Positions 7,674-44,082 of a DNA stretch of 64,000 nt are shown piece by piece. Where the stretch lies: contig NZ_CP041614.1 in assembly GCF_007197555.1 (NCBI RefSeq), forward strand, positions 2,906,001-2,970,000, given 5' to 3'. The notes beneath the pieces were generated by a model, which was given only the letters and a program-made list of their open reading frames with translations, was not told the origin of the DNA and searched no databases. Source of the DNA: Shewanella psychropiezotolerans. GTDB lineage: Bacteria; Pseudomonadota; Gammaproteobacteria; Enterobacterales; Shewanellaceae. The first letter of the stretch is position 1. The number at the start of each line of letters is the position of its first letter. The position numbers and the translations under genes were made by a program.

Positions 7674-8900
7674 ATGTTGAAACTTAGCACAGATGAAACG
7701 CATACACTTCCTAAAATAGATCAGTTAGATAGCGCTCAATTAGCCCCTCGACCTAAAACTATCGAACAAACAGGTATCCATGAATCGGTTTTACTTGAGC
7801 TAATGCTAAAACATCTGCTTTCAGCTGGGGTACTTACTAAAGCTGAGCTTGTGTCTTATATGGGGATCACCGGAGGGATAATACAAGGGCTTCTTGATAG
7901 TGCAAAACAGCTGGCTTGGGTTGAAAATCGTCAATCAACATCAGATGGACAGATGCGGTATGCATTGAGTCATGGCGGAGAGGAGTTTGCCAAGCAAGCA
8001 TCGGCTAAGAGTGGTTATAAAGGACTAGTCCCTATTCCTTTATCTCAATACTCAGATATTTGCTGTAAGCAATCTAGCCGACGAAATCCGATAACATTTG
8101 AGATGCTACAGAATGGGCTAAAGTCATTAGTATTACCCAATGAGCTTCTACACAAAATTGGTCCTGCACTGAATTCAAGTCGACCTGTTCTTATCTATGG
8201 GCCACCAGGCACAGGTAAGAGCTATCTGTGTCGAAATTTGAATTTAACTTTAGGTGACTCGGTGTTAATTCCATACTCTATTTCAATCGGTAATGAAATT
8301 ATTCAAGTTTATGATCCCCAACTTCATCACAAAGTTGGTGAAAGTGATGTAAATAACCAATTAGACCTGGTTCGAGGACATGATCCTCGTTGGATAAAAT
8401 GTAAGCGACCATTAAGGATCACGGGCGGAGAGTTGAACGCCGATATGTTAGAAGTACAATTTGACAGCCATAGTAGAACCTATATGGCCCCCATTCAATT
8501 AAAAGCAAACAATGGCATCTTACTTCTCGATGATTTAGGCCGGCAAAAAATCAGTGCCAAGCAGTTGTTTAATCGTTGGATTATTCCAATGGAGGAGCGA
8601 CGAGATTTTCTTGCATTGCAGTCCGGTGAACATTTTGAGATACCTTTTGAGCTTATTTTACTTTTCTCTACTAATCTAAATCCTAACGAACTTGTCGATG
8701 ATGCATTTCTCAGAAGGTTAGGTTACAAGATTCATTTTGATGCATTAGATGAACCTCTTTATAGGAAAATTTGGTTTCAGGTGTGTGAGGAGCAAGGGCT
8801 TAAATGTAGTGAAGAGATGTTCCAATACTTGCTTACAGATTTTCATGAGTTGTTTGAGAAGCCTTTAATTCCCTGTTACCCAAGAGATCTGTTGGGATAA
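7674..8900 (+). CDS. AAA ATPase of the Tad locus, C-terminus lost to a frameshift
   Basis: 408 residues from the ATG at 7674, which has GGGGAG seven bases upstream; an ATG at 7668 overlaps the tadV stop but sits too close to that site. Residues ~35-105 look like a winged helix. The AAA core has Walker A GPPGTGKS at 176-183 and Walker B GILLLDDLGRQ near 281, followed by a sensor-like LLFSTNL. The protein stops abruptly after CYPRDLLG. In the neighbouring frame 8897-8989 continues for 30 codons, ending in a hydrophobic/aromatic stretch (AWSIYFV), so one G seems to be missing from GGG at 8894-8896. Role in Tad function unknown; MoxR-like ATPases often remodel protein complexes. Confidence 0.75.
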   Translation: MLKLSTDETHTLPKIDQLDSAQLAPRPKTIEQTGIHESVLLELMLKHLLSAGVLTKAELVSYMGITGGIIQGLLDSAKQLAWVENRQSTSDGQMRYALSHGGEEFAKQASAKSGYKGLVPIPLSQYSDICCKQSSRRNPITFEMLQNGLKSLVLPNELLHKIGPALNSSRPVLIYGPPGTGKSYLCRNLNLTLGDSVLIPYSISIGNEIIQVYDPQLHHKVGESDVNNQLDLVRGHDPRWIKCKRPLRITGGELNADMLEVQFDSHSRTYMAPIQLKANNGILLLDDLGRQKISAKQLFNRWIIPMEERRDFLALQSGEHFEIPFELILLFSTNLNPNELVDDAFLRRLGYKIHFDALDEPLYRKIWFQVCEEQGLKCSEEMFQYLLTDFHELFEKPLIPCYPRDLLG

Positions 8901-8989
8901 TGTCGGATCAGATTAGCTTTATGCAGCTAAAGTCAGAAGTGACGAAGTCATTGATTGTTGAAGCATGGTCAATTTATTTTGTGTCGTAA
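8897..8989 (+). other. Displaced C-terminal tail of the AAA ATPase gene
   Basis: Reading from 8897 gives I-M-S-D-Q-I-S-F-M and ends at TAA 8987-8989. It directly extends the interrupted PRDLLG region in the -1 frame. Adding one G to the run at 8894-8896 would give a protein of about 438 residues. Whether this is a sequencing slip or a real mutation cannot be told from the sequence. Confidence 0.6.
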
Positions 8990-9032
8990 TCATAAATCTC
9001 GTTGCTCTCAATAAGCATCTAAGGAGTTTTTG

Positions 9033-9839
9033 ATGAACAATAAAACAATACTATTTGTCATTCTTTCATTAGTGTTTGGCGTTACTGCTGTTTTCTTGGC
9101 ACAAAGTTGGCTTAAATCAAATACAGAAGCCAATTTGCCGCAAGCTTCTACTAATGTGATCACCATGGCCACGGTGGTTCCCTTAGGTGCCATTCTGGAA
9201 CGAAAACATCTTAAGCAAACAGCTATGCCAAATTCGATTATACCGGAAACCGCTGTTACTACATTTGAAGCAGCCGAAGGTATGGTCGTTAAACAAAACC
9301 TTTATGTTGGTGAGATCCTTCGTAGTGAAAGGTTAACCAAAAAAGGTGAAGGCAGCACTCTAGCAAGTCTTATCTCACCTCAAATGCGCGCGGTGACAAT
9401 TAGGGTTAATGATGTGGTAGGAGTGGCTGGTTTCCTACTGCCTGGTAATCGTGTTGATGTGCTAAACCTGTTTAAAAGGCATGGGCGGTTACAAACAGAT
9501 GTAGTGTTAGCTAATGTGAAGATATTAGCGATAGATCAACGTTCCTCTAATGATGAAAATAAACCTAAGCTGGTAAGAGCGGTCACTCTAGAATTGAGTC
9601 TAGAAGAAGCTGAAATACTGATGATAGCCAAGGGGCGTGGAAAATTGCAACTGGCACTAAGAAACCCCAATGACTCGGCCGTAGTTGAACTTGCTTTAAT
9701 CAATGAAAATAAGGAGGTGCAACCTATAAGCAATATAGTGAAACCTTCTAAGGAAACAGTTTATGTTTCATCAGAATCTAAGGTTAAGGTGTATCTGCTC
9801 AAAGGGATGAAAGAGCAGGTTATTAAGGTCAGTAATTAG
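9033..9839 (+). CDS. rcpC: Flp pilus assembly protein CpaB/RcpC
   Basis: 268 residues from the ATG at 9033, with AAGGAG six bases upstream. An N-terminal membrane helix (residues 4-24) is followed by a SAF domain (about residues 40-105, with VPLGAILERKHL and GMVVKQNLYVGEIL) and the RcpC/CpaB domain with RAVTIRVNDVVGVAGFLLPGNRVDVL. CpaB/RcpC proteins are periplasmic and support the outer-membrane secretin; SAF domains may bind glycans. It lies directly before the secretin gene, as in most Tad loci. Confidence 0.9.
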   Translation: MNNKTILFVILSLVFGVTAVFLAQSWLKSNTEANLPQASTNVITMATVVPLGAILERKHLKQTAMPNSIIPETAVTTFEAAEGMVVKQNLYVGEILRSERLTKKGEGSTLASLISPQMRAVTIRVNDVVGVAGFLLPGNRVDVLNLFKRHGRLQTDVVLANVKILAIDQRSSNDENKPKLVRAVTLELSLEEAEILMIAKGRGKLQLALRNPNDSAVVELALINENKEVQPISNIVKPSKETVYVSSESKVKVYLLKGMKEQVIKVSN

Positions 9840-9886
9840 CATCAGGTGTTAGTGAGTTCCTCACAAATAACGTATAGGAGTGCACC

Positions 9887-10432
9887 ATGGCACGTTCAAT
9901 ACCTCAAACGGCTAGGCTAGCAACTTGCATATTATTTTTGTATTTTATTTCTATTTCAAGTTATGCCGGTGGCCCAACAGGTGCCGATAGAGAGATTAAA
10001 AAGATCCCAATATTTAAATCTCGCGTATTTCAAATTGGTCATGCAGTGCATCGAGTGTCTGTAGGTAACCCGAAAATTGGGGATATTAAGTTACTGCCAA
10101 ACAATGAACTTTATGTACTGGGTAAAAAACTAGGCAGCACTAACATCATGATTTGGGATAAGAATGAACAACTCGCAGATGTCATCGATATAGAAATAAC
10201 GCATGATCTCAATGGATTAAAGGCTAGGTTGCATGAATTTCTACCTTCCGAGAAGCTAGGTGTACAAACTTCTCAAGGTCAGCTTCTTATCAGTGGTCAA
10301 GCATCAAATTTACATAAGATGAATACTGCTGTTGAACTTGCAAAAGCCTATGCTGCAGCCGCGTCAGTTTCAAAAGTAAAAAGTACGGTATTGAACATGA
10401 TGACTGTCGGGGGGATCATCAGGTTATGCTAG
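9887..10432 (+). CDS. rcpA: Tad secretin RcpA/CpaC, N-terminal fragment (frameshifted)
   Basis: Signal peptide (residues 1-27, ending SSYA) then the N-terminal secretin domain of pilus-type secretins (RVFQIGHAVHRVSVGNPKIGD, a BON-like part near 115-170). The reading frame runs into IIRLC and stop at 10432. The real continuation D-H-Q-V-M-L-E-V-V is in the -1 frame and joins exactly at a run of six G at 10409-10414; seven G would restore one ORF to 11334 (about 482 residues). As written, this fragment cannot form the outer-membrane channel. Confidence 0.85.
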   Translation: MARSIPQTARLATCILFLYFISISSYAGGPTGADREIKKIPIFKSRVFQIGHAVHRVSVGNPKIGDIKLLPNNELYVLGKKLGSTNIMIWDKNEQLADVIDIEITHDLNGLKARLHEFLPSEKLGVQTSQGQLLISGQASNLHKMNTAVELAKAYAAAASVSKVKSTVLNMMTVGGIIRLC

Positions 10433-11334
10433 AAGTGGTCATTGCAGAAGTGCAGAGAGAAGTCGCTAAACAGTTTGATTCTAAGTTTTTTATATTTAGT
10501 CAAGGTGATAACTTTTCTGGTGGTACGGCAGGTGGTGGCGGTTCGTTTGATCTTAATCCTGCGGCAGCTATCGGTAATCGAGGTTTTTTTGCTCGATATT
10601 TAAATGATAGTCTATTGATGAATTTTGCCCTTGATGTTGCAAAACAAAACGGGTTGGCTAAAGTACTGGCTGAGCCCAACGTCACTGCGATGAGCGGTCA
10701 ATCTGCAGAGTTTTTATCGGGAGGGGAATTTCCTATACCAGTCCCTGGAACGAACGGCTCAACCACCATCCAATATCGTGACTTTGGTGTCGGTGTTCGA
10801 TTCGTGCCTTCGGTGTTGGACTCTGGTCAGATAAACCTTAGTCTTAATGTTATGGTCAGTGAAGTGAGTAATGCTAACTCAGTGACGCTTTCCGGTGGCG
10901 GATCAAATGCTGCTCTTGTTGTGCCATCTATTGTAAAGCGTACAACATCAACAACGGTAGAATTAGCAGATGGGCAAACTATAGCTATAAGTGGCTTAAT
11001 TAGTGATACGCTCCGAGAAAATATCGATAAACTGCCAGGCCTTGGTGATATTCCTATTCTCGGTCAATTATTTACTAGTAAGAGCTTTAAAAGTGGTCAG
11101 AGTGAGCTGGTGATTTTAGTGACTCCTCGCTTAGTCAGGCCATTTAATCGTAAACATATCTCTTTACCTACCGATGATTTTGTATCGCCTTCAGACATTG
11201 AGTTTTATCTGCTAGGTAAAATGTCACAGAAGCAGACCAAGTCGGATAAGCATCAAACTCCTTATGAGGCTGTAGAGAGTGAGGCTAAGCTTGATGATAG
11301 TGGTACAAAACAAAAGTATGGCCATTCACTTTAA
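10426..11334 (+). CDS. rcpA: Tad secretin RcpA/CpaC, C-terminal secretin domain (frameshifted)
   Basis: 302 residues from the first in-frame ATG, but this Met is an internal residue of the secretin rather than a start: no signal peptide and no ribosome binding site. It holds the complete secretin domain: VMLEVVIAEV, LAEPNVTAMSGQSAEFLSGGEFPIP, VGVRFVPSVL, and the closing LPGLGDIPILGQLF ... ELVILVTPRLV. The last ~55 residues are hydrophilic. It should be fused to the fragment that ends at 10432. Together they form the outer-membrane pore through which the Flp pilus leaves the cell. Confidence 0.88.
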   Translation: MLEVVIAEVQREVAKQFDSKFFIFSQGDNFSGGTAGGGGSFDLNPAAAIGNRGFFARYLNDSLLMNFALDVAKQNGLAKVLAEPNVTAMSGQSAEFLSGGEFPIPVPGTNGSTTIQYRDFGVGVRFVPSVLDSGQINLSLNVMVSEVSNANSVTLSGGGSNAALVVPSIVKRTTSTTVELADGQTIAISGLISDTLRENIDKLPGLGDIPILGQLFTSKSFKSGQSELVILVTPRLVRPFNRKHISLPTDDFVSPSDIEFYLLGKMSQKQTKSDKHQTPYEAVESEAKLDDSGTKQKYGHSL

Positions 11335-11351
11335 AGTTGGAGACTGTGACA

Positions 11352-11639
11352 ATGGATTTTTGTGATAAAAATAGCAAGTCGATGATTAAATTGAGTTGTG
11401 TATTGATTGGGTTCAGTATCAGCTTGATGGGATGTGCTGAACTAAATGATTTTCCTATGGATCAGAGTTATCAGCAGGTGAAGCAGTTACAGATATTAGA
11501 TATGGGGGCTCCAGAACGTAATGAAGGGATCGTGGGTACGCTAGATGGGCAATATGGTGAAAGAGTGATGAAAGCTTATCGTGAAAGTAATTATCCTCCT
11601 AAGCATGCTAGAGGACATATAGCCGTGAAAGTTGACTAA
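11352..11639 (+). CDS. Small Tad-locus lipoprotein
   Basis: 95 residues from ATG 11352, with GGAG nine bases upstream. A hydrophobic signal ends in the lipobox ISLMGC, so the mature protein should be lipidated at that Cys. The remainder (~70 residues) is soluble and not recognised. It sits between the secretin gene and the TadG-like gene, where many Tad loci carry RcpB, TadD or other small lipoproteins; it may help secretin assembly in the outer membrane, but this is only positional inference. Confidence 0.65.
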   Translation: MDFCDKNSKSMIKLSCVLIGFSISLMGCAELNDFPMDQSYQQVKQLQILDMGAPERNEGIVGTLDGQYGERVMKAYRESNYPPKHARGHIAVKVD

Positions 11640-11806
11640 ACTTATATGAAGTAATAAATGATAAAAATGTAGAAGATAAATTCGTTCACATATATATGTT
11701 AAGTATAAACATAATTCTTTAGTAAGTTACACCGCTCTGGTTAAGGATGGCGTCAACAAGGTGTAGTTAAACATTCCTCGTCAGTCAGAGGATAAAAGGC
11801 AAGCAG

Positions 11807-13114
11807 ATGAAGTCTGCAAAAAATGAATGTCTGTATTGTACGCATCTAGATGCGCACCAGACTGGCTCTATACTCGTGATGTTTACTATTGGTATTTTTG
11901 CTTTGTTGACGGTAGCAGCATTGGCCTTAGATAGTGGGCATATGTTGCTGGATAAAGGCAGATTACAAAATGCCGCTGACTCTTCAGCCCTCTATGGGGC
12001 AAAAATCATTCAGGATGGAGGTAGCCTCTTTGAAGCAAGAGAAGCTGCAACATCAATGCTTATTCAGAACTTTCAGTTCAGTGAAAATGCCGATCTCAAC
12101 ACGAGTGTTTCACAATCTTCAGCTGATTATAATGCCACCCAAGTCACTTCAAATATCTTTATTGAGTTTTCCCTATGGCCTGACCCTTTTATACCTGTGC
12201 TTGATGAAGATGCACAATATGTGCGTGTACGAATTGAGAATGTAGGCTTGGATAACTTTATTGCTCAGATCATGAATTTTAATAAGGTCGTTAGAGCATC
12301 GGCAGTTGCGGGAAAAAGTACCGATATTGAGTGCCTCAATAAAGTCGTCCCCATGATGGTTTGTGCTGGATACGATGAACCAAACTTCCCTGATTTTATC
12401 GATGATTCGATGCCCTTCGGCCTCCCGCGTGACGAATTATATGTGATGAAAGCCGGGTCAAATCAAGGGACCGCCATAGGTCCTGGTAACTTTCAATTAT
12501 TACGTTTAGATGGCGCCTCTGGAGGGGCCGATATTAGGCGTGCATTAGCCGGTGAGTATACTCCGGGCTCTTGTGTAAGCAGGGGCGATGATGTTCCGAC
12601 TGAGCCAGGTAATACTGTTGGACCTGTGGTTCAAGGTCTTAATACTCGCTTCGGACAGTGGCAGGGAGGTGGAGTGAATTCAACTGATCACCCAAGAGAT
12701 TTCAATAATTGCCAAGGTGACAGAGTCGAGGTCGACAATGATGGGGTCATCATTCCCTTTACTGGATCTGCTGTCGAGTATAGTCACCTTGAATATATCA
12801 CTGGCGATACACTTAATTGTGACACCGGAGGTATCTCTAGCGATGCCTCCATTTCGGCTGGAGGTAGGAGAAAGCTGCCTGTTGTGATCGGTATCTGTGA
12901 TGGTATGACAAATGGCGCCAATACGATTGAAGCCCTAAGCATTGGATGTTTCTTTTTGTCTCAAGATATCTCGCAAAAAGGCAATGAAGCACATGTTATT
13001 GGGGAATTTGTGAGTGTTTGTTCCAGCTCTGGAGCTGCTTCACTCGATCCTGGGTTTGTGAGCAATACGTCGACGATTGTCCTCTATCGTGACCCCGATA
13101 GTCCTGATTCATAG
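11807..13114 (+). CDS. tadG: TadG-like pseudopilin / Flp pilus-assembly protein
   Basis: 435 residues. Residues 24-48 carry the TadE/G-like N-terminal helix (GSILVMFTIGIFALLTVAALALDSG) followed by the conserved KGRLQNAADSSALYGAK segment of TadG-type proteins. The large C-terminal part is periplasmic, rich in Gly/Asp and has several cysteines (e.g. NCQGD, NCDTGG, GICDG, GCFF). No clear von Willebrand A domain was seen. AAAAGG lies upstream of the ATG. First of three adjacent pilin-like genes; likely an anchoring or minor pilus component. Confidence 0.82.
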   Translation: MKSAKNECLYCTHLDAHQTGSILVMFTIGIFALLTVAALALDSGHMLLDKGRLQNAADSSALYGAKIIQDGGSLFEAREAATSMLIQNFQFSENADLNTSVSQSSADYNATQVTSNIFIEFSLWPDPFIPVLDEDAQYVRVRIENVGLDNFIAQIMNFNKVVRASAVAGKSTDIECLNKVVPMMVCAGYDEPNFPDFIDDSMPFGLPRDELYVMKAGSNQGTAIGPGNFQLLRLDGASGGADIRRALAGEYTPGSCVSRGDDVPTEPGNTVGPVVQGLNTRFGQWQGGGVNSTDHPRDFNNCQGDRVEVDNDGVIIPFTGSAVEYSHLEYITGDTLNCDTGGISSDASISAGGRRKLPVVIGICDGMTNGANTIEALSIGCFFLSQDISQKGNEAHVIGEFVSVCSSSGAASLDPGFVSNTSTIVLYRDPDSPDS

Positions 13115-13123
13115 GTGAGGAAG

Positions 13124-13594
13124 ATGAAGAGTAGCAATAGAGGTGTAGCGGCAGTTGAGTTTAGCATAATGCTGCCTTTGCTACTGTTATTAGCCTTCAC
13201 CACCGGTGAGATAGGGCGTGCACTGTTTCAATACAGTCATTTGACTCGCATGGTTAGAGACGCGGGACGATACCTTTCAACGACCGCCATACCCAATACG
13301 ACAGAGAGTGTACCAGACCCTCTAGATGATGGCAGCTGCCAAAACTGTATCTCAAACACGAAAGATATTCTAGTTTATGGTTTTATTGGAGGGACAGTGC
13401 CTCTACTCAGGGGCTTATCGACATCGAATGTGAATATAGCAGCCATTCCCTCAACGGACAGTGTCACTATCACCGTAGACTATGACTGGCAACCCTTGTT
13501 TGGTGAGGGGGCGTCACACTTTGGTCTAGGTGAACAAGCTAGCACTGATTTGAGTTTCAATATGCAAGTTAGCTATACGATTAGGGCATTATGA
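13124..13594 (+). CDS. tadE: TadE-family pseudopilin
   Basis: 156 residues from the ATG at 13124, with AGGTGAGG upstream; a GTG at 13115 is possible but has no site. The TadE domain is clear: RGVAAVEFSIMLPLLLLLAF, then GEIGRALFQYSHLTRMVRDAGRYLS. The AVEF segment resembles a prepilin peptidase target. The 3' end overlaps the next gene as ATGA. TadE is a minor pseudopilin needed for Flp pilus biogenesis. Confidence 0.87.
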   Translation: MKSSNRGVAAVEFSIMLPLLLLLAFTTGEIGRALFQYSHLTRMVRDAGRYLSTTAIPNTTESVPDPLDDGSCQNCISNTKDILVYGFIGGTVPLLRGLSTSNVNIAAIPSTDSVTITVDYDWQPLFGEGASHFGLGEQASTDLSFNMQVSYTIRAL

Positions 13595-14049
13595 AATCCC
13601 AAAAGGGAGTATATGCCGTAGAGTTTGCCATTGTGGGGGGATTTTTCCTATTTCTGTTATTTGCGATCATTGAAGTTGGCCGTTTAATGTATACCTATAA
13701 TGTGCTCCATGAAGCTTCAAGGCGTGCCGCGAGAATAGCGGTTGTGTGCCAAGTCTCAGATACTGATATCGGCCATATGGCTCTATTTTATGGGGCAAAC
13801 CTAATTCCTAACTTAACTCCTGCGAATTTAACCATCAGTTATCTCGACGAGTTGGGTAATGTAGCAACAGGGATAAATATTGTCATGGTGAGAGCCGACA
13901 TATCGAACTATCAGCATCAGTTTTTAGTCCCAGGAATGTCGCGGGTTATCAGCTCTCCCACTTTTTCTACTTATCTTCCAAGAGAGAGTCTAGGTGTATA
14001 TCGCGTCGATGACGAAGACCCAGGAAGTGGCTACATAGATTGTAATTAA
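13591..14049 (+). CDS. tadF: TadE/TadF-family pseudopilin
   Basis: 152 residues with the same N-terminal architecture as the gene before it: KGVYAVEFAIVGGFFLFLLFA, then IEVGRLMYTYNVLHEASRRAARIA. The start overlaps the upstream stop by 4 bp, so translation is coupled. The assignment to TadF rather than a second TadE is by order only. Probable minor pseudopilin at the base or tip of the Flp pilus. Confidence 0.82.
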   Translation: MKSQKGVYAVEFAIVGGFFLFLLFAIIEVGRLMYTYNVLHEASRRAARIAVVCQVSDTDIGHMALFYGANLIPNLTPANLTISYLDELGNVATGINIVMVRADISNYQHQFLVPGMSRVISSPTFSTYLPRESLGVYRVDDEDPGSGYIDCN

Positions 14050-14116
14050 TTCATCTGATCCTCTCAAATCCTTACTATAGTCAATATAAGGATATTTATC
14101 TGGGAAGGATTACTGA

Positions 14117-15397
14117 ATGGATAAGCCACTGGAGTTACTTGTGTCTAGCATAGATAACACAGAGACAGATTCACACTCGTGCACAAATACTATCCATGAT
14201 GCCATGCAAATAACTAATAATATTTTACCTTACCCTGTTCATGCACTGGTGATTAACAGTCAGCATCAGCCGATTGCTAACATTGAAACCAGACTTGATA
14301 ATTGCCTTAACTTATCGTGGCAGAGTATCAATACCCTAAATCCATTCGTCAGTAATAAGACTAATGCGCGCCCGTTTAACTTGATACTGCTTGTGTTGCC
14401 TAATGAGGAGTCCCAAGCAGTACAAGCGTTAAAGTTGGCTGCTACTCATCATGTGGATATCATCATTTTAGGTCAAGATACCCCGCAAAGTGTATTAAGG
14501 CTGGCATTTCAGCAGGGGGTCAGTGATTTCATTCCGGTTGATGGTGACGATAATGTATTGTTGCAATCTTTGGACAAAATTGCGAAAAAATTGGCCAGCA
14601 AGGCCAATTTAGCGCCTGTTTTAGCCATTGTAAACGGAAAAGGAGGCTCTGGTGCCAGCTTTGTTGCAACGAGTTTAGCCGTGATAGCAGCAAGAGATAA
14701 GGGGGAAGTAGCTCTTCTTGATACCGACTTATTACAAGGAACGTTAGCCCATATGCTTGGCTTGGAACCTAGCTACTTTATCACCGAAGCGATACAGGAA
14801 CTAGATTCATTAGATGAAGTGGCGTTGAGAGGTGCGATGACTAATCGAGGGAACCTTCACCTCTTGGCAGCGAAGCCCTTTGCGGTGCTTAATGCTCCCG
14901 ATCATATAGATCTGAGGAATACTAATGAGTTACTTCTTAAGTGTAGACAGTATTATGAACAGGTGATTATCGATTTGTCTCGTGGGCCAGAAGTATGGAA
15001 CGCTGATATGTTGACTAATGCTGATATTTTGTTGGTGATGCAACAAAATGTGATGAGTATTCGGGAAACAAGAGCAGTAGTTAACCAGCTAATTAATTTT
15101 ATGGGCATAAACAAAACCAAAATTCACATATTGGTTAACCGTTATCAGAAAACGAGTTCGGGGATCACACTGAAAGACATTAAAGAGACAACAGGAATAA
15201 GCTCTCTTTTTGTTGTCGCCAATGATTTTAAGTTGTCGAGCCAATGTATAGACCTTGGTACTCCCATCACGGACGTTGCAAAACGTGAGCAGATGCTTGT
15301 CGATTTTGTGGCTGTGACTGATTATTTTTTCCCCAAAAACAGTACCGATGATGATGATGATCCAAAAGGATTTTGGAATAGGCTATTAGGAAAATAA
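14117..15397 (+). CDS. tadZ: TadZ/CpaE-family pilus localisation ATPase
   Basis: 426 residues. About residues 20-150 look like an atypical receiver domain; then a ParA/MinD-like ATPase with Walker A NGKGGSGAS at 173-181, VALLDTDLLQGTLAHMLGL and VIIDLSRGP. The signature lysine of the deviant Walker motif is present (K175). The C-terminus is acidic (DDDDD). TadZ/CpaE proteins place the Tad machine at a cell pole or focus. The stop is 1 bp before the tadA start. Confidence 0.9.
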   Translation: MDKPLELLVSSIDNTETDSHSCTNTIHDAMQITNNILPYPVHALVINSQHQPIANIETRLDNCLNLSWQSINTLNPFVSNKTNARPFNLILLVLPNEESQAVQALKLAATHHVDIIILGQDTPQSVLRLAFQQGVSDFIPVDGDDNVLLQSLDKIAKKLASKANLAPVLAIVNGKGGSGASFVATSLAVIAARDKGEVALLDTDLLQGTLAHMLGLEPSYFITEAIQELDSLDEVALRGAMTNRGNLHLLAAKPFAVLNAPDHIDLRNTNELLLKCRQYYEQVIIDLSRGPEVWNADMLTNADILLVMQQNVMSIRETRAVVNQLINFMGINKTKIHILVNRYQKTSSGITLKDIKETTGISSLFVVANDFKLSSQCIDLGTPITDVAKREQMLVDFVAVTDYFFPKNSTDDDDDPKGFWNRLLGK

Positions 15398-15398
15398 C

Positions 15399-16724
15399 AT
15401 GAGCATAACTCAACAAACTGAGCCATTAGAGTTTAAACCTCTGTCACCTGAGGAGCAACAAATAAAGGAGGAGCTTTATAATAAGTTGCTCGATGTTATG
15501 GATTTATCCCTGATAGAAACTATTTCTAAAGACCAAGCAAAACAACAGATCATTGAAATAGGCGAGAAGTTAATTAACGATCTGCATATACCCATCAACC
15601 TAAGTTCTAGGCAAAGGTTAATTCAGTTGATCATCGATGAAGTTTTAGGCTTAGGTCCCTTAGAGACCTTGCTGGCGGATCCAACCATTTCAGATATTCT
15701 GGTTAATTCATTTGACCGTGTATATGTAGAACGAAGAGGTAAGCTCGAGTCCGTACCTATCAAGTTTCATAATAACGTACACCTATTGAACATTATTGAC
15801 CGAATTGTCTCCAGCGTTGGTAGAAGAATTGATGAGTCATCGCCTATGGTTGATGCCAGGCTAGAAGATGGTTCACGTGTCAATGCCATCATTCCACCCT
15901 TAGCTCTTGATGGTCCCGCATTATCTATAAGGCGTTTTTCCGTAGATAAACTCAATGCCGAACAGCTTATTAGTTATGGCTCGGTTACCCCTGAAATGGT
16001 GGAGCTTTTGAGAGGGGCGGTTGCCGGTAAACTCAATATCTTAGTGTCAGGTGGTACCGGTAGTGGAAAAACGACCTTACTCAATATGCTATCTGGCTAT
16101 ATTCCAAGCGATGAACGGATTGTGACTATAGAAGATTCAGCAGAGCTTCAGTTGCAGCAACCCCATACCGTACGCTTGGAAACCCGGCCTGCCAATATAG
16201 AGGGGAGAGGCGAAATTACTCAACGAGATCTGGTTAAAAACTGTCTACGTATGCGGCCAGATAGAATAGTCATCGGTGAGGTTCGTGGTGGTGAAGCACT
16301 GGATATGTTAACAGCGATGAATACCGGTCATGAAGGATCATTAACCACGTTACACGCTAACAGTCCACGGGATGCCCTAGGCAGATTAGAGTATATGGTG
16401 TGTATGGCTGGATTTGACATGCCTGTTAGCAATATCAGAACACAAATTGCATCGGCTATCGATCTTGTGGTTCAACTAGAGCGTTTAGAAGATGGAGGAA
16501 GGCGGATAACCAGCATTCAAGAGATTAACGGTATGGAGGGGGACATTATAACCATGTCTGAGATCTTCCACTTTGTGAGAGAAGGGCGGGATCAAAATGG
16601 CGACATTATCGGTAAGTTTAGCTCTACAGGTGTGATCCCAGGTTTTCACAGTAAGCTTAAACAACATGGTATTGATCTTCCCTATGAACTGTTCAATAGC
16701 GGCGATCCATTTGCTGATTTCTAA
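15399..16724 (+). CDS. tadA: TadA/CpaF secretion ATPase
   Basis: 441 residues, normal length. Walker A GGTGSGKT at 218-225, Asp box/Walker B VIGEVRGGEALDMLTAMNTGHEG and His box LTTLHANSPRDAL are intact. It is the cytoplasmic hexameric motor that powers Flp pilus polymerisation. It begins right after tadZ and is followed by the two inner-membrane platform genes, the standard Tad order. Confidence 0.95.
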   Translation: MSITQQTEPLEFKPLSPEEQQIKEELYNKLLDVMDLSLIETISKDQAKQQIIEIGEKLINDLHIPINLSSRQRLIQLIIDEVLGLGPLETLLADPTISDILVNSFDRVYVERRGKLESVPIKFHNNVHLLNIIDRIVSSVGRRIDESSPMVDARLEDGSRVNAIIPPLALDGPALSIRRFSVDKLNAEQLISYGSVTPEMVELLRGAVAGKLNILVSGGTGSGKTTLLNMLSGYIPSDERIVTIEDSAELQLQQPHTVRLETRPANIEGRGEITQRDLVKNCLRMRPDRIVIGEVRGGEALDMLTAMNTGHEGSLTTLHANSPRDALGRLEYMVCMAGFDMPVSNIRTQIASAIDLVVQLERLEDGGRRITSIQEINGMEGDIITMSEIFHFVREGRDQNGDIIGKFSSTGVIPGFHSKLKQHGIDLPYELFNSGDPFADF

Positions 16725-16735
16725 AGGACTTGATT

Positions 16736-17713: not shown

Positions 17714-17715
17714 TT

Positions 17716-29979: not shown

Positions 29980-30310
29980 GTGTTATTGTTCTCGTTATTT
30001 TATCACTATTTTATCGTTATGGCTTAAATCGTGCCAATATGGATAAACACCCAAGCCATTAATTCATTTTGATACATGACTCACAAAAATAAGGGCTGAG
30101 TGAAAACACCTCTGGTTTTATGGTAAAAAGCGAGTAGTTTAATGATTGGGTAATGGGGTTCTACTCTATATCAATGGACTGATATTAAACCGCCTTCTGG
30201 GCTGATGACTCCTGGCATTTATAACGAATTAAGATCGTTAGAGGTCGGGCACAGCTGTATCAATTTCCTTCCACAACGGTCTTCCTAGCCATTTAAGCGA
30301 AGAGACTGCT
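29980..30310. other. Intergenic region and leader of the scaffold/GGGtGRT operon
   Basis: About 330 bases without an ORF. An inverted repeat ATATCA-N6-TGATAT lies at 30168-30185 and could be an operator. No known riboswitch was recognised. Confidence 0.45.
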
Positions 30311-33876: not shown

Positions 33877-34719
33877 ATGAATATATCTCGTATTGACCTG
33901 AATTTGTTGGTTTATTTTGATGTCTTGCTCAGGGAGTTGAATGTAACCCGAGCCGCAGATCAGCTGGGGATCAGCCAACCGGCCATGAGTAATGGTCTTA
34001 AAAGGTTAAGGGTTTTGTTCGACGATCCGCTCTTAATCAGAACCAGTAAGGGGATGACACCGACAGAGAGGGCAAGTGAGTTAAAACCTGTGATCCGTGA
34101 GCTATTAATTGGGCTGGAGAAAGCCGTACAACCCAAAGCCGAGTTTAATGCATTAGAGAGTGAGCAAGTGTTTCGCATGATGGCGTCGGATTATGCCGAG
34201 TCTACCCTTATTCCCTTGTTGATCGCTCGCTTGCGTAATGAAGCACCGAAAGTCATTTTGGATATCATGACCCCAAGCGATGTCAATTTTGCCGATGTGG
34301 AACAGGGTAGAGTGGATATGGCGATTAACCGCTTCGATGAAATCCCTCAATCTTTTCATCAAAAAGTGCTCTGGAAAGATACATTCAGTTGCCTCATTAA
34401 CCGCACTAATCCAGTATTGAGGGACTTTAATTTAGACAATTATCTTAAGTCTCATCACGTCTGGGTGAGTAAGACCGGCATGGGGGTCGGGGTCGGCATG
34501 GATCCCGATGATGTCCAACGTCTGGGCTGGGTAGATGAGGCCCTCGCAAAAATTGGTGCAAAACGTCGTATCACAGTATTCACCCGAAATTATCAAGCGG
34601 CCAGTTCATTGGCGGAGAGGCAAGATTTGATTGCCACTGTGCCCAGTAAAATGGCCAGATTACAGCAAGATAATACCCGAGTCAGTATAGTGACACCGCC
34701 ATTCGATATCCCCCCATAG
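33877..34719 (+). CDS. LysR-family regulator of the glyoxylate shunt, C-terminus lost to a frameshift
   Basis: 280 residues as written. N-terminal winged helix (NVTRAADQLGISQPAMSNGLKRLR, residues ~20-43) and a substrate-binding domain. Translation stops at PFDIPP. The next frame continues from 34716 as P-I-E-L-T-M-A-W-S and ends at 34820, giving a normal LysR length of about 314 residues if a run of six C (34710-34715) had one more. It is divergent from aceA, with glcB next on the same strand, so regulation of both is likely. The effector is unknown. Confidence 0.85.
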   Translation: MNISRIDLNLLVYFDVLLRELNVTRAADQLGISQPAMSNGLKRLRVLFDDPLLIRTSKGMTPTERASELKPVIRELLIGLEKAVQPKAEFNALESEQVFRMMASDYAESTLIPLLIARLRNEAPKVILDIMTPSDVNFADVEQGRVDMAINRFDEIPQSFHQKVLWKDTFSCLINRTNPVLRDFNLDNYLKSHHVWVSKTGMGVGVGMDPDDVQRLGWVDEALAKIGAKRRITVFTRNYQAASSLAERQDLIATVPSKMARLQQDNTRVSIVTPPFDIPP

Positions 34720-34820
34720 AGTTGACCATGGCCTGGAGCCCCTTATTGCAACATAATCCGGCTCACAGATGGATGAGAGAACTCATCACTGAAACTGCCA
34801 GAATCATAGATAGATTCTAG
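34716..34820 (+). other. Displaced C-terminal tail of the LysR gene
   Basis: The -1 frame codes for about 34 residues typical of the end of a LysR effector domain (AWSPLLQHNPAHRWMRELI), stopping at TAG 34818-34820. The junction is the C run at 34710-34715. Confidence 0.75.
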
Positions 34821-37211: not shown

Positions 37212-37247
37212 AATAGATACGCCACCATCCCTTTGATATTTTAAATA

Positions 37248-37285
37248 AAAAGCCAGTTAACATTATGATGTTAACTGGCTTTCTT
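37248..37285. terminator. Strong hairpin terminator between glcB and adhE
   Basis: Perfect 13-bp stem AGCCAGTTAACAT / ATGTTAACTGGCT, loop TATG, flanked by A and T runs. The genes converge, so it can serve both. Confidence 0.85.
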
Positions 37286-37350
37286 ATACGGCTGATTTTA
37301 TACCGATTGGGAGCAGCTAGTGTTTAGACCCTATGCACATGGAACTGGTA

Positions 37351-39951
37351 TTAGCTATCGCTATAGGCGTTGCCATAGAAACTGTCGAGCAGTATCTGCT
37401 TTAGCTCTGCTATCAGGGGATACCTAGGGTTCGCTCCGGTACATTGATCATCGAAGGCATCTTCGGCTAACTCGTCTAGTTTAGCTAGGAAGTCGGCTTC
37501 GTTGACGCCTGCATCTTGGATTGAAGCCGGAATGCCAATCGTCTTCTTGAGCTCATCGATTTTTTCAAGCAAAGCTTTAACTTTCTCTTCATCTGTATTA
37601 CCACTTAAGTCTAGGTAGTCTGCAATCTTTGCATAGCGACAAAGAGCCTTTGGTCGATCGTATTGGCTAAATGCCGCCTGTTTAGTGGGCATGTCAGTCG
37701 CATTGAAACGGACAACATTGCTGATGAGCAATGCATTTGCCAGGCCATGGGCAAGATGAAATTCGGCGCCTAACTTATGGGCCATAGAGTGACAGACTCC
37801 AAGGAAGGCATTAGCAAAAGCTATGCCTGCGATGGTAGAGCCATTATGTACCTTCTCGCGTGCCACGGGCGCCGCAGCGCCCAGATTATAGGCATCGGGA
37901 AGGTGCTTAAATAACAGGTCTAATGCTTGCAGAGCTTGGCCATCACTGTATTCGTTGGCCATCACACTGACATAGGCTTCCAGTGCATGGGTGATGGCAT
38001 CTATTCCACCGAAGGCGGTGAGAGATTTGGGCATGTCCATGACTAAATTAGGATCGATTATGGCCATGTTCGGTGTTAATTGATAATCGGCAATAGGGTA
38101 CTTCATTCCCGTGGTTTCATCTGTCACTACCGCGAATGGCGTGACTTCTGAACCTGTGCCTGAGGTGGTCGGGATGGCGACCATCTGCGCTTTGACACCC
38201 AATTTAGGGAACTTGTAGATACGCTTGCGAATATCCATAAATCTGAGGGCGAGATCGGCAAAATCCACATCGGGATGCTCATACATGACCCAGATAATCT
38301 TAGCCGCATCCATGGGAGAGCCGCCGCCCAGTGCGATGATCACATCGGGTTGAAAGCTATGGGCCACCTTGGCGCCTTGTTTGACGATGGCTAAGGTAGG
38401 ATCGGCTTCTACTTCATAAAATATCTCAGTTTCTAATCCCTGAGCCTTGAGGATCTTGACGGTTTCGTCACAATATCCATTATTGAACAGATACTTGTCT
38501 GTAACTATCAGTGCTCGTTTTTTGTCACTCAGTTCCTCGAGTGCAATAGGCAAGCTACCACGGCGGAAATAGATAGATGAAGGAAGCTTGTGCCACAACA
38601 TGTTTTCAGCCCTCTTAGCGACCATTTTTTTGTTAATCAGGTGACTCGGTCCCACATTTTCTGAGATGGAGTTGCCGCCCCATGAGCCACAACCTAAGGT
38701 GAGTGAAGGTGCTAGCTTGAAGTTATACAGATCGCCGATGCCGCCTTGGGAGGCTGGTGTGTTGATCAATATGCGGGCGGTCTTCATGCGAAAACCGAAG
38801 GTCTTGACGCGATCTTCTTGTGTATCTTGGTCGGTATAGAGACCCGAGGTGTGTCCTATTCCGCCCAAGGTGACCAGGGCCTCCGCCTTATCCATAGCAT
38901 CATCGAAGTCTTTGGCTCGATACATACCCAATAAAGGAGAGAGTTTTTCATGGGCAAAGGCTTCGGCGTCATTGATATCTGTCGCCTCGCCAATCAAGAC
39001 CTTAGTCCAATGGGGGACGTCTAGACCAGCCATGGAGGCGATATCTATCGCGCTCTGTCCGACGATGTCGGCATTGAGTCCGCCATTCTTGAGTATGACG
39101 CCTTGCATGGCCTCTGATTCATCGGCACTGAGAATATAGCCGCCGTGAGTTGCGAAGCGCTCTTTCACTGTGTCATAAATTTCATCGACGACGATCACCG
39201 CTTGCTCTGATGCACACACGACGCCGTTATCGAAGGTTTTAGACATCAATATTGAGCTGACAGCACGCTTGATGTCAGCGGTTTCATCTATCACGATTGG
39301 GGTATTACCCGCGCCGACGCCGATGGCGGGTTTGCCTGAAGAATAAGCCGCTTTTACCATGCCGGGTCCACCGGTGGCTAAGATGAGGTTTATCTTGTCA
39401 TGGGTCATCAAGCGATTCGACAATGCGACACTCGGCTCATCTATCCAACCGATAATATCTTTCGGAGCTCCGGCTTTAACGGCAGCATCCAGTACGATGC
39501 GTGCTGCGGTTGTGGTCGACTCTTTCGCCCTGGGATGAGGTGAGAAGATGATGCCATTACGGGTCTTGAGGCTGATAAGCGCTTTAAAGATGGCGGTGGA
39601 AGTTGGGTTAGTGGTGGGGACTATGCCACAGATGATACCGACAGGTTCGGCTATGGTTATGGTGCCGAAGGTGGGGTCTTCATCTATTATGCCGCAGGTC
39701 TTCGAGTCCTTATACTTGTTATAGATGTATTCGGAGGCGAAGTGATTCTTGATCACCTTATCTTCAATCACGCCCATGCCAGTTTCTGATGCTGCCATCT
39801 TAGCCAGAGATATTCTTGCATCGGCCGCCGCTAACGCCGCCGCTCTGAAGATGATATCGACTTGTTCCTGACTGAAGTTAGCAAACTGGGCTTGTGCATC
39901 TGCAACTCGTTGTACAAGAAGATCGAGTTCTTGCTCATTGGTCACTGTCAT
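37351..39951 (-). CDS. adhE: Bifunctional acetaldehyde-CoA / alcohol dehydrogenase
   Basis: 866 residues with the AdhE two-domain layout. Residues ~1-440 are the aldehyde dehydrogenase with the catalytic Cys in NGVVCASEQ; residues ~450-866 are the iron-dependent alcohol dehydrogenase with GGGSPMDAAK and metal-binding His in FLGVCHSMAHKLGAEFHLAHG. It converts acetyl-CoA to ethanol in fermentation and forms spirosomes in other bacteria. AAGGAAA precedes the ATG. A terminator-like hairpin lies directly before that site. Confidence 0.96.
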   Translation of the reverse strand: MTVTNEQELDLLVQRVADAQAQFANFSQEQVDIIFRAAALAAADARISLAKMAASETGMGVIEDKVIKNHFASEYIYNKYKDSKTCGIIDEDPTFGTITIAEPVGIICGIVPTTNPTSTAIFKALISLKTRNGIIFSPHPRAKESTTTAARIVLDAAVKAGAPKDIIGWIDEPSVALSNRLMTHDKINLILATGGPGMVKAAYSSGKPAIGVGAGNTPIVIDETADIKRAVSSILMSKTFDNGVVCASEQAVIVVDEIYDTVKERFATHGGYILSADESEAMQGVILKNGGLNADIVGQSAIDIASMAGLDVPHWTKVLIGEATDINDAEAFAHEKLSPLLGMYRAKDFDDAMDKAEALVTLGGIGHTSGLYTDQDTQEDRVKTFGFRMKTARILINTPASQGGIGDLYNFKLAPSLTLGCGSWGGNSISENVGPSHLINKKMVAKRAENMLWHKLPSSIYFRRGSLPIALEELSDKKRALIVTDKYLFNNGYCDETVKILKAQGLETEIFYEVEADPTLAIVKQGAKVAHSFQPDVIIALGGGSPMDAAKIIWVMYEHPDVDFADLALRFMDIRKRIYKFPKLGVKAQMVAIPTTSGTGSEVTPFAVVTDETTGMKYPIADYQLTPNMAIIDPNLVMDMPKSLTAFGGIDAITHALEAYVSVMANEYSDGQALQALDLLFKHLPDAYNLGAAAPVAREKVHNGSTIAGIAFANAFLGVCHSMAHKLGAEFHLAHGLANALLISNVVRFNATDMPTKQAAFSQYDRPKALCRYAKIADYLDLSGNTDEEKVKALLEKIDELKKTIGIPASIQDAGVNEADFLAKLDELAEDAFDDQCTGANPRYPLIAELKQILLDSFYGNAYSDS

Positions 39952-39965
39952 TTTGTATTTCCTTG

Positions 39966-39998
39966 AAAAAATTTAGCCAAAATCGGTTTTGGCTAAAT
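39966..39998 (-). promoter_or_regulatory. Terminator-like hairpin in the adhE leader (candidate attenuator)
   Basis: On the minus strand a perfect 12-bp stem ATTTAGCCAAAA / TTTTGGCTAAAT with a 4-base loop is followed by TTTTT and then the adhE ribosome binding site, ending 14 bases from the ATG. No gene upstream on this strand needs a terminator, because ychE is divergent. It may be an attenuator, an RNA-processing site or a protein-binding palindrome. Confidence 0.6.
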
Positions 39999-40245
39999 CT
40001 TCTCGATGACTAAAAATTACACCCAAACCCCCTCGATAACCGTGATCTTAGCCACAGTTTGCGGCCTTGTTGTAATTAAATTACATTGTTAACGACTTGT
40101 TTGTTTAATTGGTGAGCTGTGATGTTTTTAATCGGAATAAAAAAACTCATTTTTACCGGATGAAATCATAAGGTAAACTCGTCTGCTCAATACAAGGGCG
40201 ATGGCAAATTAGCTAACGCTTTAATCTGTATTTACACTCGAGGAT

Positions 40246-40884
40246 ATGTCGTTGGATTATACATTTTATGTTAAGTTTTTTTTAGGCTTGTTGGCCATCA
40301 TCAACCCTGTGGGTCTTTTACCTGTGTTTGTGAGCTTAACCAGTCATCAAAATGATATCGAACGCAATCATACGGGAAAAGTGGCTAACTTTGCCGTTGT
40401 GGTTATCTTGCTGGTGACCATATTTGCCGGTCAGCATATTCTAAACTTGTTCAGTATCTCGCTGTCGGCTTTTAGGATAGCCGGTGGTTCCTTGATTGCG
40501 ATCATTGCCATGTCTATGCTGCAGGGAAAATTGGGTGAGGTTAAACGTAACAAGGAAGAAGACAGGGAATCATCGGGCATGGAGTCGGTTGCCGTGGTAC
40601 CTCTGGCCTTACCCTTGATGGCTGGCCCAGGTGCCATTAGCTCTGTGATTGTGTCTGCGGCTGAAAATAACACCTTTATCAATCATGTCGGCATGTCTAT
40701 CACAGTCATGGTATTTGGTTTAACCAGCTTTATGCTCTTTAGGGCGGCGCCCGTGATATATAAAGTGCTGGGGAAAACGGGTATTAATGTCATTACTAGA
40801 TTGATGGGACTCTTGATGCTATCTATTGGTATCGAAGTGATCGTGGCAGGGTTTAAAGGCCTGTTTCCCAATTTGCTGAATTAG
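40246..40884 (+). CDS. ychE: MarC-family membrane protein (YchE)
   Basis: 212 residues, six membrane helices. Family blocks: NPVGLLPVF, FRIAGGSLIAIIAMSMLQGKLGE, VVPLALPLMAGPGAIS and the ending GINVITRLMGLLMLSIGIE. The C-terminal part closely resembles E. coli YchE, which is also the neighbour of adhE, so the gene name is by synteny and likeness. The function of MarC proteins is unsettled. Confidence 0.88.
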   Translation: MSLDYTFYVKFFLGLLAIINPVGLLPVFVSLTSHQNDIERNHTGKVANFAVVVILLVTIFAGQHILNLFSISLSAFRIAGGSLIAIIAMSMLQGKLGEVKRNKEEDRESSGMESVAVVPLALPLMAGPGAISSVIVSAAENNTFINHVGMSITVMVFGLTSFMLFRAAPVIYKVLGKTGINVITRLMGLLMLSIGIEVIVAGFKGLFPNLLN

Positions 40885-40968
40885 CCATTTAAGTATTAAG
40901 CTTAATCAGGATTTACGTAATTTTTCATTATTGTTTCACATGTGCAGCCAGTAAGGCGCTACATGAGT

Positions 40969-41005
40969 AAACGCTGTTTGAATGACTCGAACGGCGTTTT
41001 TGTTT
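40969..41005 (+). terminator. Rho-independent terminator after ychE
   Basis: Stem AAACGCTGTT / AACGGCGTTT with one mismatch and an 11-base loop, then TTGTTT. Confidence 0.78.
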
Positions 41006-41082
41006 CATCATAAAATAACCCTTATAGCGGATCTGTACTAAGATTTTGATAGAGCTCTACCTCCTATATCATGGAAGATTTT

Positions 41083-42039
41083 ATGTCACAGCTTCAGACT
41101 CCTCGCCAACCTTTTTTTTTACAATACTGTCATTTAATCAGTCTTCTAACACTCGCCTTTATTTTATGTGCCTGCTCCCGAGAGCAGGTCGATGCCGAAC
41201 TTCTCTTCATCTTCGGGGAGGAGGGTGCAGCCCCTGGTCAGTTTAAATACGTAGAAGACTTCGCAGTGGATGGCAACGGGAATTTACTGATTACCGATGC
41301 GCTCAATGGCAATGTTCAGGTCTTCAGCGCCGACGGCACCTATATTTCCATGTTTGGGGCCACTAAACAGATAGGGGGCTTGAGAAAGCCAGAGGGGATA
41401 GCCATAGATGAAGATGGGAATATTCATGTAGCGGATTATTTAACCGGCCATGTAGAGAAGTTTTCATCTGACCATAACCATATGCTGACATATAGCGGTT
41501 ATGGCAGCGTCGAGGGGAAGACTCAGGAAACCGAATTTATGACGTTTCATCAAAATGGTTTCCTGTATGTGCCCGAGGCTGGCAATAGTCGTATCAGCGT
41601 GTTCGATAAAGAGGGGAACTTTCAATTTACCTTCGCACAAAAAGGCAATGAACCGGGTCAGTTAAGCAGGCCTGAAGCCATCAAACATAACAGTCGAGGC
41701 TTACTTTATGTTGCCGATCTTGGAAATCACCGAATTCAGGTTTTCGATGAGTACGGTAACTTCCTGTTTCTCTGGGGAAATGAGGGAGATGGTCCGGGAG
41801 AATTCAGGAAGCCCTCAGGCTTAGCGATAGACGCTAACGATAATGTGTATGTAGCGGAAATTGGTAATAACCGGATACAGAAATTTAACAGCCGTGGCAA
41901 ATTTCTGTATATGTTCGGTCAAAGTGGCCGTGAACCCGGCGATTTCGGCAATATACATGGTCTCGTTATAGGTTTGAATAAGTTGCTTTATGTTGCCGAT
42001 ACTGCCAATCATAGAGTGCAAGTTTTTGATGTCAGATGA
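41083..42039 (+). CDS. NHL-repeat lipoprotein
   Basis: 318 residues from ATG 41083, with GGAAG five bases upstream (the ATG at 41071 has none). The signal peptide ends in a lipobox-like ILCAC. About six NHL repeats follow, e.g. LRKPEGIAIDEDGNIHVADYLTGHVEKF, LLYVADLGNHRIQVFDEYGNFLF and LAIDANDNVYVAEIGNNRIQKF. This makes a beta-propeller, probably an outer-membrane or periplasmic binding module. It is followed after 14 bp by a sensor kinase gene, so it may feed a signal to it. Confidence 0.82.
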   Translation: MSQLQTPRQPFFLQYCHLISLLTLAFILCACSREQVDAELLFIFGEEGAAPGQFKYVEDFAVDGNGNLLITDALNGNVQVFSADGTYISMFGATKQIGGLRKPEGIAIDEDGNIHVADYLTGHVEKFSSDHNHMLTYSGYGSVEGKTQETEFMTFHQNGFLYVPEAGNSRISVFDKEGNFQFTFAQKGNEPGQLSRPEAIKHNSRGLLYVADLGNHRIQVFDEYGNFLFLWGNEGDGPGEFRKPSGLAIDANDNVYVAEIGNNRIQKFNSRGKFLYMFGQSGREPGDFGNIHGLVIGLNKLLYVADTANHRVQVFDVR

Positions 42040-42053
42040 TGTAGGAATTACCT

Positions 42054-43772
42054 ATGTTTATTGCGATGAAAAACCTGTCATTGAGAGATTTACCCATAGC
42101 GAAAAAATTTGCTTTGCCTGGTATTGTCTATATTTTGGGGATATTAATCATAACGAGCACTGTGTATGCCTTTATTAATGACCAGCGCGCACGCAATGTT
42201 TTGATCTATGACGTTATTACCCAAAAAAATATTTTGTCAAATTTAGAAAGTAACCTTGCTAAGGTCAACGAGGGCCTGAATCAGATGTTATTCTTCGATA
42301 GTCGTGAATTTGATGTCTTATTACTGGCGAAGGCCGAAGACTTTCAATCGACTCTGGTGGAGTTTAAGTATATTTCGCAGCGGCATGCTTTTATCAATGA
42401 TGAGTCTTTGGCTGAAGAGATAGAACCCGTCCTCGAACTGATGAGGACCCAGTTGATTAAAGTGGTCAGCCTGTCATTTAGTCGCTCTCTCAGAGGCAGC
42501 GGAAAGTCATATCAACAAGAATTTATCTTGTATTCGAATCAAATTAGAGCATTTACTAATGATGCCTTGTACGGTAAGTCTGAGCTGGTAGAAGCCTTGT
42601 TAAAAGAGAATGTTTATAGAGAATGGCTGTTTTCTGTCCTTTTCCTGTTGGAAGTCACTATCACGGCACTGTTAAGTTATTTTATGCACGTGCTCGTATC
42701 CAGGCAACTTATTTTTCCCATCAATAAAATAAAACTCATCAGCGACGAAGTGATTAAGCGCTACGCTTTTAATGATAATAATGCCCTGGACTATGAAATG
42801 TTGTTGACGCGACTCGCCTTGATAACATCTAAGGATGAAGTGGGAGATCTAGCTAGGCAATTTTTAGTCATGATGCAGACGATAGATCTTGGCAGACAAA
42901 TAGAGTCCGAAAAAAAACAAGCGATTGAACATCTCTACAGCACATTAAAACAGACCAATGAACAAGTATTGAAAACAAAGGGGGAATTAAACCTGCGTAA
43001 TCAAGAGTTAGAACGTATTCACGAGAAGCTGATCACGTCGAATAAACAACTGGAGCAATCGGCCAAGCTTTCTTCAATAGGGGAGATGTCGGCGGGCATT
43101 GCTCATGAAATAAATCAGCCACTAGGGGTGATGAGATTATACACAGACTGCATGCTTCTGGTTCAGGGGCATCCCTCTAAGATAAATGACATGCTAGAAA
43201 AAAACTTAATGCAAATAGAGCGGATCAGCAAGATCATCAATCACCTAAGACTGTTCAGTCGAGATGAGCAGGGTGAAGAAAGGGAAATCATTGCCGTGGA
43301 TTGGTTGATCGATCAATCCTTGATCCTCATTTCCCCAGAATTAAAGCTGCTTTCCATCACACTCGCCGTAAATATCCAAAACAAGGGTCAATTTATATTA
43401 TGTAATCAGGTTCAGCTACTACAAGTGCTGACCAATCTACTCAATAATGCCAAAGATGCCATCATCGAACTCGAATCCTTAGCCCTGCCACAGGGCATAG
43501 GAAAACTGATATCGATTAATGTGCAGTGCCGAGCAGAACGTGTCTTGATTGAAGTCAGTGACACGGGTGTAGGGGTTCCAAGCTCACTGATTAGAAAAAT
43601 ATTCCAACCTTTCTACACGACTAAGCCCGTCGGTTCGGGTACTGGGCTCGGGCTTTCTATTTGTTATGGAATAATAGAACAGCATGCCGGCACTATAGAG
43701 TGTAGGAGTCAACAAGGCTGTGGAACGACCTTTCTAATCGATTTACCCCATGTGTTAGCATTGAGTTCTTAA
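42054..43772 (+). CDS. Membrane sensor histidine kinase
   Basis: 572 residues. Membrane helix near 24-44, a periplasmic helical region to ~190, second helix near 192-216, HAMP-like linker, and a coiled coil (290-345). The HisKA box GEMSAGIAHEINQPLGVM has His351; the HATPase part shows N box NLLNNAKDAI, G1 DTGVGVP and G2 GTGLGLSICYGIIEQHAGTIECRS. It is the NtrB/DctB-like four-helix sensor type. It lies 13 bp before the response regulator gene. The ligand is unknown. Confidence 0.88.
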   Translation: MFIAMKNLSLRDLPIAKKFALPGIVYILGILIITSTVYAFINDQRARNVLIYDVITQKNILSNLESNLAKVNEGLNQMLFFDSREFDVLLLAKAEDFQSTLVEFKYISQRHAFINDESLAEEIEPVLELMRTQLIKVVSLSFSRSLRGSGKSYQQEFILYSNQIRAFTNDALYGKSELVEALLKENVYREWLFSVLFLLEVTITALLSYFMHVLVSRQLIFPINKIKLISDEVIKRYAFNDNNALDYEMLLTRLALITSKDEVGDLARQFLVMMQTIDLGRQIESEKKQAIEHLYSTLKQTNEQVLKTKGELNLRNQELERIHEKLITSNKQLEQSAKLSSIGEMSAGIAHEINQPLGVMRLYTDCMLLVQGHPSKINDMLEKNLMQIERISKIINHLRLFSRDEQGEEREIIAVDWLIDQSLILISPELKLLSITLAVNIQNKGQFILCNQVQLLQVLTNLLNNAKDAIIELESLALPQGIGKLISINVQCRAERVLIEVSDTGVGVPSSLIRKIFQPFYTTKPVGSGTGLGLSICYGIIEQHAGTIECRSQQGCGTTFLIDLPHVLALSS

Positions 43773-43785
43773 AAAGGAGAGATCT

Positions 43786-44082
43786 ATGACTAATATTCTT
43801 ATTGTTGATGATGATGCTGATTTCTCGGAAGCCTTACAAGACTCCTTGTCTATGCTTCTGAGCCATTATCAATTTATAACTTGTGGTAAATCTAGTCAGG
43901 TATTCGACTTAATATACAGTTTACCCGCTTCTCTTGTTATCACGGATATGATCATGCCGGATGTGGAAGGGATAGAGATCATCACACGGTTAAAGCAAGA
44001 GATGCCTGATATACCCATTATAGCCATGTCCGGCGGTGGCCGAGTCGGGGGAGTAACTATCTTATCTTGGCGGATGCGTTAG
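43786..44082 (+). CDS. Response regulator receiver protein, frameshifted near the C-terminus
   Basis: 98 residues as written. Receiver domain with acidic pair DDDAD, phospho-acceptor Asp in VITDMIMPD and Thr/Ser switch IIAMSGGG. After GGRVGG the reading frame goes wrong and ends at WRMR. The -1 frame continues S-N-Y-L-I-L-A-D-A-L-G-A-D-A with the conserved Lys in FDKPLS and stops at 44162. The junction is a run of five G (44047-44051); six would give a 125-residue single-domain regulator. AAGGAG precedes the ATG. Cognate to the kinase just upstream. Confidence 0.85.
   Translation: MTNILIVDDDADFSEALQDSLSMLLSHYQFITCGKSSQVFDLIYSLPASLVITDMIMPDVEGIEIITRLKQEMPDIPIIAMSGGGRVGGVTILSWRMR

Follow-up and report, generated by a model that had tools for sequence, protein, structure and literature searches.

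Why do four unrelated genes in a single stretch of Shewanella psychropiezotolerans YLB-06 DNA change reading frame, each at or beside a short run of G or C? The stretch, referred to here as the window, comprises 64,000 bases, from 2,906,001 to 2,970,000 of a single 6,449,204-base contig. Taking the letters of this genome together with those of its relatives, we conclude that the four breaks are almost certainly consensus errors of the deposited assembly, and not mutations of the organism.

Four genes of the window change frame at short G/C runs

When the intact proteins of the nearest relative in our set were compared with the window by tblastn, each of the four places returned two adjoining pieces in two frames (Table 1). 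This bears out the four frame breaks of the original prediction, which fall at or beside short G/C runs, and the runs themselves lie at the positions it gave. The relative, G073 (6,353,406 bases), which we take to be S. psychrophila WP2, is syntenic across most of the window at ~77-90% DNA identity. Conservation past the breaks is about the same as before them, the LysR tail and the C-terminal part of the secretin being examples. The AAA ATPase site, with a run of only three bases as assembled, is the weakest of the four, because runs with a true length of 4 were found shortened in just one of 1,336 cases.

Table 1. Pieces and runs of the four broken genes, in window coordinates
Feature	Position	Strand	tblastn piece	Remarks
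AAA ATPase, N-terminal piece	7659..8900	+	7659-8897	413 of 443 aa in the relative
GGG run at the AAA ATPase frame change	8894..8896	+		Run of 4 in the relative
AAA ATPase, conserved C-terminal piece in the other frame	8879..8989	+	8879-8986	89% identity to the relative; ends with the stop codon
Tad/Flp pilus secretin, N-terminal piece	9887..10432	+	9887-10414	181 aa; T2SS-T3SS_pil_N domain
G6 run at the secretin frame change	10409..10414	+		
Secretin, C-terminal piece in the other frame	10411..11334	+	10411-11331	98% identity to the relative; the Secretin domain of the relative's protein lies here
LysR regulator, N-terminal piece	33877..34719	+	33877-34716	280 of 314 aa in the relative
C6 run at the LysR frame change	34710..34715	+		
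LysR regulator, last 36 residues in the other frame	34710..34820	+	34710-34817	100% identity to the relative; ends with the stop codon
Response regulator receiver domain, N-terminal piece	43786..44082	+	43786-44064	Query, first 94 codons; conserved match to ~44064; stop 44080-44082
G5 run beside the response regulator frame change	44047..44051	+		Break placed to within 3 bases
Response regulator, last 37 residues in the other frame	44049..44162	+	44049-44159	86% identity to the relative; ends with the stop codon

The original prediction had named a comparison of orthologues as a check, and across 128 other genomes of the genus the close orthologues, judged by the length of their open frames, do not stop at these points. 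The open frame of the LysR regulator measures 324-331 aa in 59/59 close orthologues as against 290 aa here, and that of the secretin 482-500 aa in 36/36 as against 184 aa. For the AAA ATPase it is 438-464 aa in 35/36 as against 427 aa, the exception (G120) having internal stops, and for the response regulator, with at most 40 candidates scored per genome, 129-132 aa in 3/3 as against 105 aa. Within the window, 4 of 44 orthologues change frame, and these are precisely the four named genes and no other tested one; in stretches of five other relatives the corresponding counts are 0/50, 0/44, 1/45, 0/31, and 0/29.

Several other features were seen in passing. A secretin-like match outside the window (contig positions 4763953-4764384) has an open frame of 193 aa, compared with 472 in both G073 and a further genome of the set, G123, and is perhaps another undercall. 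Inside the window, a 3066-aa open frame (46998-56198) holds ten copies of a 324-base tandem repeat (47807-51077, 92% matches). A fluoride riboswitch aptamer (RF01734, 38.3 bits) occupies window positions 30140-30221; downstream of it lie a 230-aa frame, for which Pfam gave nothing at 1e-5, and a GGGtGRT-family protein.

Frame changes extend across the genome

The breaks are genome-wide and not local to the window. Our sample covers 864 kb, or 13% of the genome (positions 1-400,000 and 2,786,001-3,250,000, the window included), set against 880 kb of G073, with orthologues defined by at least 75% identity and at least 80% coverage. Frame changes were flagged in 36 of 490 orthologues here (38 junctions) and in 6 of 512 in the reverse test, the latter a lower bound (Fisher p 7e-7, on raw counts), and both sampled regions, the origin region as well as the window with its flanks, are affected. 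At least one frame change of G073, in the orthologue of window 44325-45659, escaped the filter, hence the lower bound. Among the six reverse flags, four (o31, o85, o377, o678) look like fragment or start-extension effects, and two (o388, o430) look like real frame changes in G073. As for the gene at window 44325-45659, which encodes an HD-domain protein, its frame is changed in G073 and not here, and the overlapping pieces in G073 resemble a small duplication.

Three of the flagged genes were dropped on hand reading, a matter of judgement: o355, whose break lies ahead of the HPr domain; o117, broken at an A6 run that precedes the likely start of a signal peptide; and o42, with a +1 shift (one of the 38 junctions) inside a poorly aligned stretch. 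This leaves 33 genes, which span 5.5% of the sample, and 35 junctions. Two genes carry two breaks each, where 1.4 would be expected if breaks were independent.

Each of the 35 kept junctions has lost one base modulo 3. In six of them this comes with another, in-frame change of length, and these were left unlocalized. A codon-aware score localized the 30 junctions without any other net length change, 29 of which belong to the kept set; it was preferred to plain nucleotide alignment, which placed many gaps off the run. For 26 of these 29, the position touches a G/C run that is 3-7 bases long as assembled; the remaining three lie within 1-3 bases of one, and none of the 30 localized junctions shows a plus-one shift at a run. 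This wider pattern excludes chance, since only 5.3% of sample positions have a G/C run of at least 4 no more than 7 bases away.

Losses rise with run length and spare A/T runs

Runs were counted over 513 kb of covered coding sequence, on the assumption that the true length at a broken site is the assembled length plus one. At a true length of 3, none of 6,407 G/C runs has lost a base; the losses then climb to 1/1,336 (0.07%) at length 4, 9/282 (3.2%) at length 5, 10/46 (22%) at length 6, 7/9 (78%) at length 7, and 2/2 at length 8. The A/T runs of lengths 3 to 7 gave 0/10,437, 0/2,809, 0/849, 0/231, and 1/70, and over lengths 3-9 a single loss was found in 14,404 runs, located upstream of a likely start. 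Methylation-linked miscalls were considered and set aside: GATC lies near 5/30 broken runs as compared with 21/273 (length 5) and 6/36 (length 6) intact G/C runs, with no clear link.

Exact G7 and G8 runs occur here at 10.5 and 1.7 per Mb, the lowest values among 11 chosen genomes (11.8-28.5 and 2.1-5.1 in the others), and A8 runs are ordinary, with 45.9 per Mb as compared with 40.4-51.2. The depletion of G7 and G8 runs is in agreement with run loss, but modest.

Ribosomal RNA genes are affected at a similar rate

From this genome we collected ten 16S and eleven 23S copies, and nine of each from G073. Consensus G/C runs of 6 lack one base in 5/21 copies here as compared with 0/18 in G073, runs of 5 in 2/73 as compared with 0/63, runs of 4 in 0/288 as compared with 0/243, and runs of 3 in 1/966 as compared with 1/814, and A/T runs of 3-5 show no base loss in the rRNA of either genome. 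The affected genes lie at several places on the chromosome, and two more single-base gaps occur outside runs in 23S copies here. These rates are about those of protein genes, though the two classes are under very different constraint.

Run losses were seen in two of the ten 16S copies found here. According to the available text of a published comparison, YLB-06 has twelve 16S copies with 11 variants (PMC10059138). All ten copies that we found are distinct (9/10 once gap columns are left out), and G073 has two types among nine. We rejected the idea that this heterogeneity is purely an artefact: substitutions common to several copies persist. One 16S copy (L269) shares six substitutions with G073, which looks like operon exchange or an ancestral form. 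Two 23S pieces, at 857000-862000 (L276) and 6366000-6374000 (L275), are without the 5' part and have no adjoining 16S gene by primer search; they are either truncated operons or assembly joins.

Losses are blind to gene function

Which genes are hit? The family search covered 32 of the 36 flagged proteins, with o117, o215, o230, and o396, which cross stretch borders, lying outside it, and several of the 32 had no family match. The flagged proteins include dapE, hldE, rmlC, three TrkH-family transporters, a heavy-metal RND transporter, a sarcosine-oxidase-alpha-family protein, a helicase IV-like protein, and two GGDEF proteins. In E. coli, loss of dapE is lethal unless diaminopimelate is supplied. 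Here dapE is split at a C6 run, and this is the only dapE_proteo place over the cut-off in the whole genome, other matches scoring no higher than 107 bits, with the cut-off at 362.

Identity to the relative is alike for broken and intact genes (medians 93.2% and 93.4%, p 0.31). Broken genes are longer (mean 458 aa as compared with 343 aa), in line with what an error acting per run predicts. With dapE hit, with rRNA and protein genes losing bases at similar rates, and with identity unchanged, the losses are blind to gene function and to selection.

Reading errors or mutations?

Homopolymer undercalling in the assembly was the first choice of the original prediction, and it gains support from the whole signature: the losses are of minus one base, fall in G/C runs only, depend on run length, and recur in the coding genes sampled as well as in rRNA copies, and the orthologues are intact. 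We infer a reading error as the cause and a long-read platform as its type. In an insufficiently corrected assembly, probably of long reads, base calling or consensus building would underestimate runs of G or C, and the chance of losing one base would be close to zero at a true length of 3, about one fifth at 6, and such as to affect most runs at 7. Any gene carrying such a run would be exposed, whatever its function, so that roughly 7% of the tested genes would look like frameshifted pseudogenes. The available text of the paper on strain YLB-09 makes no mention of the sequencing platform used for YLB-06 (PMC11527400).

The alternative that the original prediction had named, a replication or repair defect, deserves the closest look. 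The sequenced culture would then have been a mutator, defective in mismatch repair or proofreading, whose G/C runs really slipped and contracted. This is a serious rival because its indels, too, increase with run length: in mismatch-repair mutants they fall mainly in homopolymers and become more frequent with length, according to the available portions of two studies (PMC8510543, PMC5854121), so that the length trend is not decisive on its own. That both sampled regions are affected would also suit a mutator. What speaks against it is, in the first place, that mutS and mutL, the two repair genes examined, have open frames, and that the one copy of dapE is broken. In the second place, base loss from runs is about as frequent in rRNA as in protein genes, and the losses have therefore not been filtered by selection. 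Finally, mismatch-repair mutators produce indels of both signs, and we find one doubtful plus-one shift among 38 junctions, none of it localized to a run, and A/T runs spared but for one in 14,404. In Bacillus subtilis defective in mismatch repair, A/T runs do gain bases, as far as the accessible part of the report goes (PMC8510543). On this evidence we regard a mutator culture as very improbable.

We give slightly less credence still to a variant in which the YLB-06 culture truly carries shortened G/C runs genome-wide, dapE and some rRNA copies included. These would have arisen from an unrecognised slippage that is specific to G/C and yields deletions only, with mutS and mutL intact, and would be tolerated through recoding or slippage.

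Ordinary pseudogenes, formed as genes decayed in the YLB-06 lineage, rank lower again, and we would be most surprised to find them behind the breaks. The relative does contain a few seemingly real frame changes, such as an 11-base event and a multiply broken gene of 141 aa. Decay is, however, hard to reconcile with a set of junctions that share one sign modulo 3 in 35 of 35 cases, 29 of them localized to a G/C run or to a point no more than 3 bases from one, with window sequence about as conserved past the breaks as before them, or with dapE and rRNA among the targets. Programmed frameshifting, transcriptional slippage, and phase variation, of which homopolymer runs are the usual sites, can be dismissed with similar assurance: the frame is open in the relatives surveyed above, so that no frame change is conserved, the genes have no relation to one another, and non-coding rRNA loses bases about as often.

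Consequences for published data

Undercalling of G/C runs is ordinary as biology. If the sample is typical, extrapolation puts at ~7%, or some 300-400, the genes that are broken solely in the assembly, and hundreds of genes may thus look dead through run loss. Published pseudogene counts and the coding density of YLB-06 are probably affected. In the available text of PMC10059138, YLB-06 is credited with 5255 non-pseudo genes and a coding density of 77.28%, and serves as a comparator in an argument on deep-sea adaptation in which S. violacea (79.61%) and S. benthica (78.57%) also figure. If pseudogenes were left out of that figure, the low density of YLB-06 is probably in part an artefact, because 5.5% of the sample is taken up by the 33 broken genes alone; the argument, as far as that text shows, rests on other strains too. 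Claims that S. psychropiezotolerans lacks a gene need rechecking. Among the papers listed by searches for YLB-06 and the species, no title or abstract opening mentions such assembly errors.

Comparison with known systems

How does the pattern compare with systems in which runs are known to change? Like the mismatch-repair-deficient mutation accumulation lines described in the accessible parts of two studies (PMC8510543, PMC5854121), this genome shows single-base changes in homopolymers at a rate that goes up with length. Unlike them, it shows no localized plus-one change and spares its A/T runs, dapE and rRNA are hit with no sign of selection, and mutS and mutL are open.

Other parallels come from sequencing itself. 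The Kastor paper, in the part available, describes long-read draft assemblies that gain many frameshifted pseudogenes, as is very likely the case here, although in its example the deletion errors mostly follow A/T runs (PMC12007338), whereas the losses here fall almost only in G/C runs. On this last point, the homopolymer errors of Oxford Nanopore reads fit the pattern: according to the available text of PMC8486125, deletions dominate the longer runs, and runs of G and C are read worse than those of A and T, the more so as they lengthen.
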